A stretch of DNA of 64,000 nucleotides from Diplolepis rosae. Its lineage: Eukaryota > Arthropoda > Insecta > Hymenoptera > Diplolepididae. The notes beneath the pieces are model-generated. The model searched no databases and had not been told where the DNA came from. It was given only the letters and a program-made list of their open reading frames with translations. Position 1 is the first letter of the stretch; each line of letters starts with the position of its first letter. Below, one piece after another: positions 29,150 to 37,709 of the stretch. The stretch spans positions 3,100,001 through 3,164,000 of the forward strand of contig JAPYXD010000581.1 of assembly GCA_030998225.1 (NCBI GenBank). The letters are read 5' to 3'. The position numbers and the translations under genes were made by a program.

Positions 29150-29997
29150 AATATTACTATATTGTTTAAATAAAATTTTGATCTCGAAATAGTTATTTGT
29201 ATTATAATTAATTATAATATTATCTATTGTTATTTGTGTAATTTATTCATGTATAATCAACTTCTAAAAAACGCGCCAAATTGGGCTATGAGTGGGGGGA
29301 ACTTAATGGTGGGAGGAAGTATGGAGGGTGGTGTCCTTCTTTTCCTATCAAGCCATCTGATCACCCTAATGATTCTCAATATATATAAATCAATATATAT
29401 CAATGTATGAGCACAGGTTTCACTATGATCGGCCATTGAATTTTGATAAAGTAAAAAAAAAATTACAAAATTGTTAGTTTTTAATTGTTTATTTAAAAAC
29501 AATTTTAATTCTTGTTTTTGAACGTGAAGGACATCATCATTTTTCAATGTTTTTTAAAATGATTTTTAAAGTTCAAAACTCCCGACGCGTCATTTTGAGC
29601 CTCTGACTCGAGCGGTTGGGTGCACCCAGAATAGTATTGAAAAGTGATGAAAATGATACTTAGAGACATTTGTAGGTATGAAGGGTTTTATTATTACTTC
29701 CAGTCATTATAAATTCTACACTGAGGTTTACTTTCAAAGAGGTTATATCCTTTGAATTATGTAGTTGGAATGGACGCCTGGGGTTTTCTCTGACCTGAAG
29801 TACTTTTAGATAAGCTTTTCTTGCAATTCGGAAATTAGGATTTTCAATTTCTTTTGATTGGTTGAATAAGTACGAATCCTGAAAGATTACGTTTTCGTTT
29901 TCGAACTGTAGGACAAATCTTTCGATTGGTCACAGCTTTACTGTTGAAGACAATGGAACGTTTAGTGGTAATCCATACATGGAAGTGATAAAAGTAC
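29150..29997. other. Intergenic spacer
   Basis: No gene or repeat recognised. The open frame 29257-29547 (minus) is not convincing. Confidence 0.5.
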
Positions 29998-30646
29998 GGG
30001 AGATGTACCAGATACGGGACGGGTTTTGTTTTTCGGCCATATCTTTTGACTGAGTTAAGATTTTGAGTTCATATAAGGATCAAATTAAAGCTAATGTATT
30101 TGCGCAACTTTTATCTGCAGATAGTATATTGATATCATAAACAGAAATAAAATTATGACCATTTTCGTAAAGTGATGTTTTTCGGACCAAAACATTTTTG
30201 GCACCAGGTACGGGACACCTAGAAAAATCCGCTAAAAATCGGAAAATATGAAGTAAAAACACGGTAAATAAAGAAAATGTCAATTTTTATTAATTCTGAA
30301 AGATTTCAGTGGCAAAAAGGAATATAAAAAATGGTGTTTTTTCATTATTTCAATCTAATTGACAAATGGACAAAACCAAATCAAAATATCAATTTATATG
30401 CAAAACACTCACCTTGTTCGGTTAAATAACTTGGATTAACAGCACTTTGAAAATAATTCGATAAAACTTTTTAAAATGGTTTTCGCACACGATGTCTTGA
30501 GCTAGCACAAGGAATGCGACTATTCACATCGGTGTTTTACTAAAAATTAGCTACTGTCATTAGAAACATTTGAAACTACTTTAATTGGCCATATTGGTAT
30601 TTTAACATTGAAAGAATCAGCTGTCCCGCAACTGGTACATCTCCCC
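29998..30646. mobile_element. Non-coding TIR element, 649 bp
   Basis: gggagatgtaccagatacgg at the left pairs with the complement gggagatgtaccagttgcgg at the right (21 of 23 bp match over the full arm). No target duplication is certain. It has no coding capacity. It ends about 40 bp before the transposase-like gene and might be an upstream neighbour or part of the same composite. Confidence 0.6.
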
Positions 30647-31016
30647 TCCTTTATTATACCTTCAGTTTTTTAAATTGAACTAAATGCCAAATCAGAAGAT
30701 TGGTTGCAATCCTTTCAAGTTGAGGAACCATACGTGGATTAGAAAAGGTGTTGTAAAAGCTCCTTCGGCATTTAAAGGAAAGTTTCCTGAGCTCAGAAAG
30801 TACGTTTGCATCAGCTTCAGATTTCACATTTCCTATAATACCATACTATAAAATAAGGTAAGTGTTTCTGTAAATGATAATAATAATACATCTTTTGAAG
30901 AAGATTCTGCTGAAGAACCTTCCGATCATTAAGAAGATCCTTCTTCGCCTGATTTGCCGAGTAGCGACAAGGAATATGTTGAAGGAGATACGGGATTTGA
31001 AATGATAAATTCAGTA

Positions 31017-32363
31017 GGGGAGAAGCGGCGAAATTGGCGCGTCGTCTAAATTGGCGCACCCTATTTTTCAGAAAATGATAACATAACAAAAAATAAAAAT
31101 AGTTCTATCGTGTGCATTCTTGTATGATATGTATTTGATAGAAAAAATTATAAAAATCTAATTGCTTAATACAGTTTTATTGCGATTAATCGTTTTTTGG
31201 CATAATGGTTATGTTCGAAGCCACTGAGTTAAATCGTTAAATAATAGTAATTCAAGGTGAATTAGATTAATGCAACGATTTTATAACCTTTGATATTTAA
31301 TCATACGATTAGGATAGAATATTTGTATGAAAAAATAAGCATTTTACGTAAAAAGTATTTAATTAATGAACGATACACTTGCGGCAAAATTGGCGCATAC
31401 GAGATTCAAATCAGAGGCGAAGTTGGCACACGTGTTGTGTTTCTGGAAACCGGTGACTGAAGTCAAGTGCTCGGATGTTTATGATTGAAAATATAAAGAA
31501 GATAGTAAGTACACAATTATTAATATATAGATATATACATTTGAATGTTGCTGGACTTTTCTGCTAATCTTTTTCTTACGATTTTTTGTGACATGGGATG
31601 TAATGTGGTTCGCAAAACTGATGTAACGACTTTGTAAGGTTATATTCATTTGAACAATCAGTAGTTAAATTTTTTTTTAAGTTTGAGGTATTAAGGCATT
31701 TTAAAAGCGATTTTTAATAATTAATTTGCAGTCTGACAGTGTTTTGAAAGTTTTCTCGATTTTAAGATGTCAAAGCAATGTAAGAAAAAAATTGTATTTT
31801 TGATTGATTGTTTCTATTATTTATAAGTCTTCTAAAGTTAATAATTGTATATACTTCTGATTACAAATTCAAATAATTCTCTATAAAAATGATTTCAATT
31901 TGAATATTCACTTAAATATCCACAATTGGCAGTATTTTATTGTACAAATATAAAATATATTTTAACTTTGGCTGGTTTATGTGAATAAAGGTATAAAAAA
32001 CTTCACATATCTTGATATACTATCTCAAATTTAATTTCAAATTATAACTACCTCTTTTCATCAACCTTTGCTACTGAAATGTAATTCTAAATCTATGAAA
32101 ATATAACTAATACGTGGCAAGAGAAGATTATAATATTAGTGCGTCAATTTACCCGACATGGCGGGTAAATTGACGCAGGTGCAGTCCTTCGGAAATCTGA
32201 ATAAAAACCTGCTTTAATAATTTTCAATGCAATCTTTATCCATTGGAAAGTATAGAAAAGATATCCAGCTATTAAATAAATATTTTTTCATAATTTTTAG
32301 TCATATACTTTCTTTTTAAACTCGCACTTTCTATTAGGTGCGCCAATTTCGCCGCTTCTCCCC
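31017..32363. mobile_element. TIR element inserted in the transposase-like gene, 1,347 bp
   Basis: Ends are exact inverted repeats beginning GGGGAGAAGCGGCGAAATTG, flanked by TA at 31015-31016 and 32364-32365. Removing the element with one TA restores a GTA codon and the frame continues INSV-KEKF. The interior repeats the aaattggcgca motif and has a palindrome near 32152 (gtcaatttacccg / cgggtaaattgac). No transposase ORF is visible. Confidence 0.85.
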
Positions 32364-32677
32364 TAAAAGAAAAGTTTCTGAAAGCACATAATTTTCGAAA
32401 TAAAATTTTCTGATTAAGTGTAATTTCGCAGAGTGGGACTGTACGACATTTGCAAAAAGAATTTAATATCACCTTTAAATTGGCTCAAAAGGCTAAACAA
32501 ATACAAATGAAATATGGATTTAGTTCATATGCACCGCCAAGAAAATCTGTATTCTTTCCGAAACTGATTATTCTTATTCCTAGACAAAAATATTGCGTAT
32601 TGGTAAAACAAGCTGATGGTAAGAGAGTAAAAATTCAAAAACGGTTAATATTATGCAAACTAAAAGAAGCATACGTA

Positions 32678-33968
32678 CACTACCGTCGGAAATTGTGCGC
32701 ACGGTGCTTGTGATCGCTATTAAAAATCACTGCTGACTTTGAACCACGATATCTCGGTGAAAAAAAGAGATAGTGCATTTTTAAAAATACAGTTGAAAAG
32801 CTTATGAAATTCCATGTCTAGTGATGCTCAATAAATATTTTTTTGACTTTTTGAAAATAATACAGCACGTGAGGAATTAAAAAAAAAAATTCAAGATTTT
32901 TTCAAATTCTCTACCTCAACTTCAACTTTTTGCATGGCCTAGGAAAAATTTTTCCAAAATCTGAAAATTTTAAGACATAAAGTCTAAAATCTTATCTTTA
33001 ATTTAAGCCAAGAAAACTTGAAAAATATTCATGGGTACCCGAGATACGATTAAAAATGTTCAATCGTATCTGAGTTGAATTTTAATCGACGATCACGATT
33101 CTCGGCCGGTTTGTTGCTCGCCTACTTCGTTGAGGCAGGAACGAATAGGCCACGCACAAAGGTGGCGCTTCAGTGGAGCTCTCTTATATGTTCTTTGATC
33201 CAAGAACGTGTTTCCTTTATTTCCTTTCCATTCATTCTTAGTTAATATTTACAATGACTATTAAAATTTTTATTAATGTTCTAGTTTATAAGAATTTTAA
33301 GAAATAAAAAATGTTTACATATCATTGTTCTATTCGTTAATATGGGGATAATATTGGATTTAAATAATTTTTAATAATCACAAACTAACAATAAATATTT
33401 TTTTAAATTTGGAATAATTAGAAATAAAAATTACTAATGAACAGAATCAAAAATACATATAAGAGGGCTCCACTTAAACGCCACCTTTGTGCGTGGCCAT
33501 TTCGGTCCCGCTTCAACGAAGGAGGCGAGCAACAAACCGTCCGAAAATCGTGATCGTCGATTAAAATTCAACTCAGATACGATTGAACATTTTTAATCGT
33601 ATCTCGGGTACCCATGAATATTTTTCAAGTTTTCTTGGCTTAAATTAAAGATAAGATTTTAGACTTTATGTCTTAAAATTTTCAGATTTTGGAAAAATTT
33701 TTCCTAGGCCATGCAAAAAGTTGAAGTTGAGGTAAAGAATTTGAAAAAATCTTGAATTTTTTTTTTTAATTCCTCACGTGCTGTATTATTTTCAAAAAGT
33801 CAAAAAAATATTTGTTGAGCATCACTGAACGTGAAATTTCATAAGCTTTCCAACTGTATTTTTAAAAATGCCCTATCCCTTTTTGTCACCGAGATATCGT
33901 GGTTCAAAGTCAGCAGTGATTTTCAATAGCGATCACGAGCACCGTGCGCACAATTTCGGACGGTAGTG
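32678..33968. mobile_element. Long-arm palindromic Tc1/mariner-type element, 1,291 bp
   Basis: The ends CACTACCGTCGGAAATTGTG (left) and the near-complement at right flank arms of about 510 bp each around a ~260-bp centre. TA lies at 32676-32677 and 33969-33970. With one TA the host frame reads EAY-V-HFKTLYP without interruption. The CACTACCGT start and TA target fit Tc1-like elements. No transposase is present; the short open frames are chance. Confidence 0.9.
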
Positions 33969-35188
33969 TACATTTCAAAACCTTGTATCCTCATATGAAA
34001 CTTGGATTTACTAAATTTCCTTTACTGTGGCCCAAAGACTGCATTTTGGCTGATGTCAATGAAACACACACCGTATGTGTTTGTAAAATTCATCAAAATT
34101 TTAAATTATTGATAAATAGTTCAAAATGTGTTTCGGACAAACTTTCATTTAGTACTTACTTGTATGAAGATGTATTAAACGATATGGTGTGTGAAAATCT
34201 CACTTCTGATTGTCAGCTTCAAAAATGCAATCTTTGTCCAGGCTTTGAAGACATTGGTACTGAATTAGAAGAAGTAGTTAAACAAAATATTATTACTAAC
34301 ATAACTCACTTACAATTGACTCATGTTGATCGTTCTGCCTTAGAAACGCTCACGAAAGATACGGAAACGTTCATTAATACGCTGAGAAATGAAGCATTCA
34401 TTCTTCAAACGCACAACTTTATTACCAAAAGTCAAAGTAAATTTTTAAAAGCATTTAAACTTGAATTAAAGGAAGAAGTATTTGTAATAACAGGTGATTT
34501 TCCAGAAAATTATGTTTTCTTAATCCAAAACACGATTCAGAATCAATATTGGAACAACAATCAATATACAATACATCGATTTGTTATTTATGGTTCAGTG
34601 CGGGATGAAAATGGTCAACCAAAGTTCGATAGTTTTGTTCTTATTTCAGAGTGTACTAATCATGACACTTTTTCCATTCACCTCTTTCAAAAGAAATTAA
34701 TTAATTGGTTTGTTGAAAAAAAAGGTTAAGAGAATGTTAAAAAAATTTATTACTTTTCTGATGGTGCAGTTTCTCAGTATACAAATAAGAAAAATGGCAT
34801 TAATTTAACTCATCAATTTGAAGATTTTAATATAGAAGTCGAATGGAACTTCTTTGCTACATCGCATGGAAAAAATGACTGTGATGGAATTGGTGGAACT
34901 GTTATAAGATTTATAAGATGCGAAAGTTTAAGACGGCCTGATATAAAACTGATTGCAACACCCAAAGCTTTATTTTATTCAGTGAAACAAAAGTTTGACA
35001 CAATTCACTTTAACTTTCGTACTAATAAAGAGCATCAGAAGGAAGAAAACTTGTTACAAAATCGATTTAGTGCAGCTATTACAATCGAAGGAACACGGAG
35101 TTCTCACTCCTATGTACCCGTAGGGGAACATGAGATGAAATGTAAAATTGTCTTTAATTTCGATGACTCTATCAGAAATGTTTAAAAT

Positions 35189-36690
35189 TATGTAATTTCG
35201 TTTTCATGAAGTATACAAACTGCGTACAATTGAAATAAAATAAAAACAATAAAATACTGCGTATTTTAGTTGGTAGGGAGGTGAGGTTAGGTTATTTTTT
35301 TTGCCTGAAATTGAAATTGAATACTCGACCGAATGATAGGTTACACCAGTTATTTATTAACAAGTAATTTTATGCACAAAGTTCGGGATAACGCATTTAC
35401 CCCCGGAAACCTAACCCGACCACATATAATTTCACGAACTTGATATAAAGCTGGGCTGCTATTACATTGTTGAGCGCCAGGTTATAGTACGTCGAAATAA
35501 CCAAAGTTACTATTTAATGAACTCGCTATTGATAGACCAGCCCGCTCATGTCGGGTTACCCTGTACCGCGGAGAGCGCGGGATAAGGAGAAGCATTTAAG
35601 GCCGCCTTGCGGGTAAGCGACACTGTTATTCGCGTAAATCCGATGCATACCGCGGTCACTGACTCGAACTTTAATTTTTAACGCACGGAATGGCCCAGAG
35701 TCTGTCACCTCGAAATCTCCGTAGCGAGATGCTATTGTCGCGCACCACACAATTAAACCAAATTAAATTAAATGAATCAGAACCAAAGGAGACACTCAAC
35801 GTTACCTGATATCTTACGGCGTTCTCGCCAGCTTCCTCGATTCGACATCCTCAATTTGTCCAGATGTTGGACAGAAAGTTAGTTATGGAACACAGATTGT
35901 AATGACTTTCACTTTTAAACCTTTAGGATAGTAAAGGCAGATCTTTCTCAAATAAAAATAGTGAGGTTTTTTTGCTTTAGTTGTAAATTATAAAGTTTGT
36001 CGGCATTCCATAAGTAGTCTGTCTCCGAAAAGAGCACTCTCCATTAAATGCCCTCATAAACCCTCCGAGATACCTGCCTTCGCCTCGACTTTAGTTTAGC
36101 ACCCTTACTAAGTTACCAAAATGTGACATCGTCTCATGACCACTTGTACAACGTTGCCATTCATCATCAGTTATGTATTTAAATTCAATAACTAGAAAGG
36201 ACTGACAACGTCGAATTCCTAAAGGCTTGGGGTGGAGACCTTTGGTGAGGACCAGGGCGTCGGCAGTAGCTTGAGAGGTGCGAGGCGGTCAATAGCATTA
36301 TTGTCGTCGTCGATACTTGAAATTTATTTGTCACCCTCTGATTCGAGTCACAATCTATTAATGTACCCAGAATTTAGATGTTTCTAATTATTAAATACAT
36401 TTATTAATAAGTACATTTGCAGTGGTCATTTTTTAGCTGAACCCAAACTTTTAACAAAAGCACGCATCAAATTATTTGTGTTTACAAACACAATTTGATA
36501 AACGAAATTCCCGTCTCTCTATCTGGTACTTCAGCCACCACAGACGTCGAATAGAGAATGAATAGAAAACATGGGCGAATTGTAAAGAAACACGACCCAC
36601 TTACTAGCTGGAAACCGTGATGGCTTAAACGAGCAAAATGCGGCAATAGAACTGTCATTTAATGAAAAAAATATGTCGTGAGAATCAGTG
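35189..36690. other. Intergenic; partly GC-richer
   Basis: No gene recognised. 35530-35750 is GC-richer and has a 64-codon minus-strand frame without familiar motifs. It may be the 3' flank of the preceding transposon, but no matching terminal repeat was found. Confidence 0.5.
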
Positions 36691-37072: not shown

Positions 37073-37213
37073 ATACGCTCTTCTGCAGCTGGCTGTTCTA
37101 CAATAGGTATTTGCTCTTCGATCACATTATTTTCTACTACTCTTAGTTCAACTTCTATTGCATTTTCAGGATTAGATTCTTCGAAATAGTAGATTGTGTA
37201 CCAAGGGTGGCAT
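37051..37213 (-). CDS. Unknown Glu-rich reading frame, antisense overlap
   Basis: The minus strand is open for about 50 codons (YYFEESNPENAIEVE, VIEEQIPIVEQPAAEERIH) and stops at 37051. Codon use and the acidic, repetitive Glu/Ile/Val pattern look coding-like. Its end overlaps the end of the plus-strand frame by 22 bp. Identity unknown. Confidence 0.25.
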
Positions 37214-37709
37214 GGTGGCGATTGTGATGAGTGCGAAGTGTACCCGCGCGAGCGTAGCGAGGGCGGTATTCACACGAGTCACATCGCTACCATGTCGCTC
37301 GAGGTGCACACGACGTTTTGTGTCCAAATTGGTGGAAAAAGTCGCGTTGCGTGCGAATGCGTAGTTAGTCGCGGGCAGTCAAGTTTCGGGCGGTATGAAT
37401 ATTTTGCCCGTTGAAGCGGGCGGTATGAACATTTCGCCCGATTGTTACGCCGAAGCACAATTGACTCCATGCCGCCCTACGCACAAGCATGCAATGCGAC
37501 TTTTTCCGCCCGTTTAGACACAAAAGTTATTTTCGCCAAGTTCTTGTATTTCGTCCTTATCTGTTTATTGTTCTTCTGAATTTTGGTCCTCGTCAGTCTC
37601 CTTTTGAGAGAGCAAAAATCGTTTTTCTTGACTCAGGGGGTCTCAAAAACAACCCAATAAAAAAATGTCAAAAAATTCCAAAAATGTGAAAAGCCCTTGT
37701 GTATGACAA
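37214..37709. other. GC-rich patch without a recognised gene
   Basis: Includes repeated gcgggcggtatgaa blocks (37387 and 37427) and, at about 37620-37660, a short match to the dispersed repeat (cttgactcagggggtctcaa). Confidence 0.5.

Follow-up and report, generated by a model that had tools for sequence, protein, structure and literature searches.

In the parts of the literature drawn on here, Sola is listed among the DDD/E transposon superfamilies and piggyBac and Kolobok are given as targeting TTAA (PMC9587614), 4-bp AT-rich duplications are consistent with Sola2 (PMC3627910), and Sola2 elements are described as abundant in Cotesia congregata (PMC7822920). Here we report on a locus of the Diplolepis rosae genome in which a transposase-like gene is split by TA-flanked elements. 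It lies in a window of 64,000 nucleotides, by which we mean the whole stretch of DNA analysed (G000:C296:3100001-3164000); the genome searched comprises 757.7 Mb. We conclude with high confidence that a defunct copy of a cut-and-paste DNA transposon occupies this locus, with nested TA-target inserts acquired later; it is of a DDD/E type with 4-bp duplications, probably Sola. The duplications and the papers on wasp Sola2 lead us to Sola, and probably to Sola2; the latter filing is likely, although by description only.

Results

The split gene is the relic of a transposase from a large multi-copy family and not a host gene. A sequence-only reading had placed it at 30684-35188 and had seen two insertions in it. 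Homology to paralogs covers 29434-35268, making the element larger than proposed, and while both insertions are real, a third TA insertion in the same element (29997-30646) had been missed. The features, with other loci of the genome numbered L and homologous proteins P, are as follows.

29434-35268, plus strand: host element, a degraded DDE/D-type DNA transposon copy, probably Sola, that lacks both outer ends; holds three nested inserts
29562-29678, plus strand: left terminal inverted repeat, conserved part; aligned inverted to the right ends of L018, L019, L022 and L025
29997-30646, no strand: insert 3, non-autonomous element; inverted repeat; ends NGGGAGATGTACC...; TA target; boundaries by eye
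30684-31016, plus strand: relic piece 1, with CNPF at the N-terminus; two in-frame stops (30849, 30930)
31017-32363, no strand: insert 1, non-autonomous element of 1347 bp with ends GGGGAGAAGCGGCGAAATTGGCGC and a TA duplication
32366-32677, plus strand: relic piece 2; one in-frame stop (32411); shorter than paralogs by a small deletion; tblastn match to P0042 at E 7.8e-12
32678-33968, no strand: insert 2, foldback-type non-autonomous element of 1291 bp with ends CACTACCGTC...GACGGTAGTG and a TA duplication
33971-34726, plus strand: relic piece 3; cysteine cluster; first Asp at codon 34496 (DFPENY)
34730-35185, plus strand: relic piece 4; second Asp at codon 34760 (SDG), third at 34883 (CDG), then stop

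The sites are real insertions with real boundaries, because paralogs are continuous across the empty sites. We checked them against 13 loci of the same genome, nine of which lack the stretches around sites 1 and 2 and are uninformative there. Site 1 is empty in L018, L023, L024 and L025, which run from 31015 directly to 32366, and all four carry TG where the window has TA. Site 2 is empty in L018, L023 and L025, which run from 32677-32679 directly to 33967-33969; L024 is deleted at this point. In the window, insert 1 is bounded by TA at 31015-31016 and 32364-32365 and has 26-nt arms (TA included) that are 100% complementary. Insert 2 is bounded by TA at 32676-32677 and 33969-33970, with 522-nt arms that are 95% complementary. 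The two TA-flanked inserts of the sequence-only reading (31017-32363 and 32678-33968) proved exact, with inverted arms, and its claim of clean boundaries is borne out by four continuous paralogs at site 1 and three at site 2.

Insert 3 lies upstream of the ATG of the relic, inside the same host element. Its site is empty in L024 and L025, which run from 29997 straight to 30649. The window copy is flanked by TA on the left and TC on the right and the empty site has a single TA; the right TA appears to have mutated to TC in the window copy. By eye, TA is present on both sides of all four relatives with both ends located; the right end of L062 was not located.

Each insert has many relatives. The genome search with insert 1 (40 of 1188 candidates scored) identified 32 other full-length copies, 28 at 98-99% and four at 95-97%. 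The first 583 bases of insert 2 matched 39 others at 96-99% (40 of 2003 candidates scored, a count that may include both arms of single copies). For insert 3, scoring 40 of 207 candidates gave 39 others, of which 37 match the first ~400 bases at 91-96% and two match nearly full length, at 84 and 87%. TA flanks were found in all six inspected copies of insert 1 and all six of insert 2, window included. Relative to the majority of six copies, the window copy differs at 9 of 1348 columns in insert 1 and at 15 of 1291 in insert 2. Inserts 1 and 2 thus combine TA-flanked terminal inverted repeats with dispersed similar copies, as expected of TA-target miniature inverted-repeat transposable elements (MITEs). 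We take the CACTACCGT-type ends of insert 2 to resemble Tc1-like ends. A 16-nt motif around GCGGCGAAATTGGCGC occurs five times in insert 1 (31025-32176); the copies are 81-100% alike and may be an array of transposase-binding sites.

The DNA search with 33971-35250 returned 51 matches after 40 of 90 candidates had been scored. Eleven of the other matches are at least 500 bases long; ten of them are at 80-89% and one at 72%. Close relatives are 98-99% identical for insert 1, 96-99% for insert 2 and 91-96% for insert 3, compared with 80-89% for most host-element paralogs. Because the insert relatives are more alike than the host-element paralogs, we conclude that the inserts are later nested additions. 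Family identities, without a calibrated rate, suggest the order host element, then insert 3, then inserts 2 and 1; the rank of insert 3, for which few full-length relatives were seen, is the weakest. The internal clock proposed earlier holds only in part: a ranking of the inserts can be drawn from how closely each matches its own family. Arm divergence within insert 2 was rejected as a clock: the arms are 91-95% identical (5-9% different) in all six copies examined, and the divergence is therefore an inherited feature. Nested insertions are expected somewhere in this genome, given families of 207, 1188 and 2003 first-look candidates (inserts 3, 1 and 2, respectively).

With the inserts removed, the relic pieces lie in one frame, including across the junctions INSV-KEKF and EAY-V-HFKTLYP of the sequence-only reading. 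Its claim of a restored frame stands to that extent, yet four in-frame stops persist (30849, 30930, 32411 and 34727), as does the deletion in piece 2. The latter has 312-314 window bases over 356-362 alignment columns with L018, L023 and L025, which implies a deletion of about 42-50 bp. Pieces 3 and 4 are parted by the TAA at 34727, and the stop codon closing the relic is at 35183-35185. The tblastn matches of piece 1 are weak (P0071, E 0.029; P0098, E 0.22). The pieces no longer encode a working protein.

A model of an intact homologue has an RNase-H-like integrase/transposase core. The blocks DFPENY, SDG and CDG, around which a fold prediction had been proposed, sit in this core, fit its acidic triad and are retained in the window. 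The model would place the D-D-D triad at these residues. The acidic residues are invariant across many insect homologues. The listed homologues are proteins of about 490-800 aa, most of them unnamed and many called uncharacterized proteins; one is from Cotesia glomerata (P0101). UniRef names an ant homologue (P0049) Cc8L18.2-like; the name Cc8L18.2 does not occur in the literature searched.

Searches of protein libraries gave little. Three window pieces and two relatives have only below-cut-off matches in Pfam (best E 5.8e-4, to a helix-turn-helix family). The Pfam scan of 57 homologues, with cut-offs seen for the first member only, matched 36 families at E <= 0.1 (among the families listed, best E 2e-4; OGG_N in 10 of 57). 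We found no NCBIfam match for four homologues, no PDB sequence match at E <= 1 for the alignment (a relative matched a single chain, at E 0.55) and nothing in Foldseek at E <= 0.001. Among viral contigs, 80 stretches matched a pattern and none encodes a relative. A common insect transposase family without a convincing Pfam or NCBIfam name means that its copies enter databases as uncharacterized proteins.

The multi-copy family, the uninterrupted paralogs and the RNase-H-like core bear out the earlier description of the gene as transposase-like. The matching terminal inverted repeats for which a search had been advised were also found, in relatives. Piece 4, used as a protein query against the genome, yielded 150 matches, with 150 of 1407 candidates scored. 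The related family L009-L012 has ~47% protein identity to piece 4; its copies are ~3.51 kb long, 98.7-99.3% alike in four pairs compared, and have inverted terminal repeats of ~494 bp. We read target duplications in 14 elements, namely L009-L012 and ten further element pairs read at their ends. Perfect 4-bp duplications occur in 7 of the 14 (TGCT, TCCA, AAAT three times, ATAT and TATG; 4 of 7 pure A/T), versus 6 of 182 mismatched flank pairs. Other lengths are 2 bp in two elements and 3 bp in one, with none of 5 to 9 bp. Relatives thus have terminal inverted repeats and a fixed-length duplication, and the intact homologue an RNase-H-like domain with an acidic triad, the features of DDE/D cut-and-paste transposons. 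Three observations weigh against the 4-bp duplication: the left end is lacking in one of the element pairs checked for the duplication, two of the 14 elements have a common left flank, and L012, alone among L009-L012, is without a matching 4-bp duplication. The relative in L012 (2403-5908) lies within a stretch of Gypsy-like gag/pol reading frames (by eye).

Sola ends begin 5'-GRG. By eye, the first bases of the ends are GAG in L009-L012 and G-rich in L020, L025 and L022. In three copies of the subfamily to which the window copy belongs, the ends open G-rich and continue with TTCATATGAAAGGCAA-like sequence.

Homology between the window copy and its paralogs, as pieced together from L018-L026, covers 29434-29997, 30649-31015, 32366-32677 and 33968-35268. 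The left match begins at 29434, beyond which three other copies run further out to a common left end. The right match ends at 35268 in the longest matches, except in L021 (35275). We found no second copy within the window that would be the right-hand terminal repeat. Other dispersed repeats take over from 35265 on; they occupy the right flank at 35265-36300, with a break near 35855. A further dispersed repeat is a 100-bp stretch at 37183-37282 that is 95% identical to L026:8293-8391.

Shortened forms of the family were also identified. L020:4114-5190 is an internally deleted derivative whose left end is joined to a point matching 34695 in the window, and several genome matches to 33971-35250 also begin near 34695, which suggests a recurrent short form. 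In L027 (3699-4767 and 5212-6280) and L028 (4346-4758 and 5073-5485), foldback derivatives carry part of the transposase gene a second time, inverted and a few hundred bases away, with arms 97-99% alike. The genome search with piece 4 gave a similar match pair at C426:11431344 and 11432186. Further element pairs, e.g., at C95:3412-3419 kb, have interrupted ends.

Discussion

The gene coded for a transposase of ~650 residues with an N-terminal Cys-containing segment, a helical part weakly resembling a helix-turn-helix, a cysteine cluster and an RNase-H-like domain in which a D-D-D triad would be catalytic. An intact relative's transposase would recognise and bind its ~0.5-kb terminal inverted repeats and excise the element, and reinsertion would follow a 4-bp staggered cut; of this scheme, the 4-bp duplication is seen in relatives. 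This copy would have inserted and the family diverged before three TA-target non-autonomous elements landed in it. Their TA targets suggest that they were probably mobilised in trans by Tc1/mariner-type transposases.

Of the other explanations, the one that survives best is a DDD superfamily other than Sola, either an unnamed lineage or another named one. It accords with the weak Pfam matches, the lack of NCBIfam matches for four proteins, the predominance of unnamed homologues and a likeness to Sola2 that is by description only. However, piggyBac and Kolobok, the superfamilies weighed against Sola here (Ginger and others were left out), use TTAA (PMC9587614, in part), unlike the seven perfect duplications. 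Neither was retained, with 0 of 7 being TTAA. The 4-bp duplications fit Sola2 as described in part of PMC3627910, and Sola2 is reported as abundant in Cotesia congregata (PMC7822920, in part), with a homologue present in Cotesia glomerata. We therefore consider a non-Sola superfamily rather unlikely. The narrower proposal of an unnamed DDD superfamily distinct from Sola2, common across insects and defined by its CNP(F) head, Cys cluster in the centre and HGKG-CDG catalytic block, is improbable; if true, such a superfamily would be one so far missed by protein-family libraries.

Domestication of the transposase as a host protein, with the window copy a pseudogene, could account for the conservation of many insect homologues and their invariant acidic residues. 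However, the dispersed copies and the relatives with terminal repeats look like a transposon family, as do the internally deleted L020 derivative and the further matches beginning near 34695, and we regard this explanation as very improbable. One outcome would have overturned the sequence-only reading: a single-copy host gene interrupted by introns at both insert points. It has next to no probability despite the many homologues called uncharacterized proteins: the empty sites and the number of copies rule it out, the inserts belong to dispersed repeat families with TA duplications, and terminal inverted repeats bound the relatives.

The locus, a dead DNA transposon carrying nested MITEs, is genome debris of an ordinary kind, and the sequence in which its layers were added can be roughly reconstructed. 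It forms a layered transposon graveyard, with one older host element, three later families that differ in similarity, and empty sites in paralogs.

Comparison with known systems

The host element resembles Sola2 in the 4-bp target duplications of its relatives (PMC3627910), in having MITE derivatives, which are reported in a wasp (PMC7822920), and in its DDD/E transposase (PMC9587614), as far as the parts of these papers used here describe them. Relative to what is given in part of PMC3627910, it differs in terminal repeats of ~0.5 kb in relatives versus 12-21 bp in amoebozoan Sola2, in proteins of about 490-800 aa versus 888 aa for one Sola2 protein, and in perfect duplications of which 4 of 7 are pure A/T, versus A/T. 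With the retroviral integrase core and the Mos1 mariner catalytic domain it shares an RNase-H-like fold and an acidic triad of predicted position, whereas the alignment has no PDB sequence match at E <= 1. Mariner duplicates TA, in contrast to the 4 bp of host-element relatives. Inserts 1 and 2, and probably insert 3, resemble Tc1/mariner-type MITEs in their TA targets and terminal inverted repeats.
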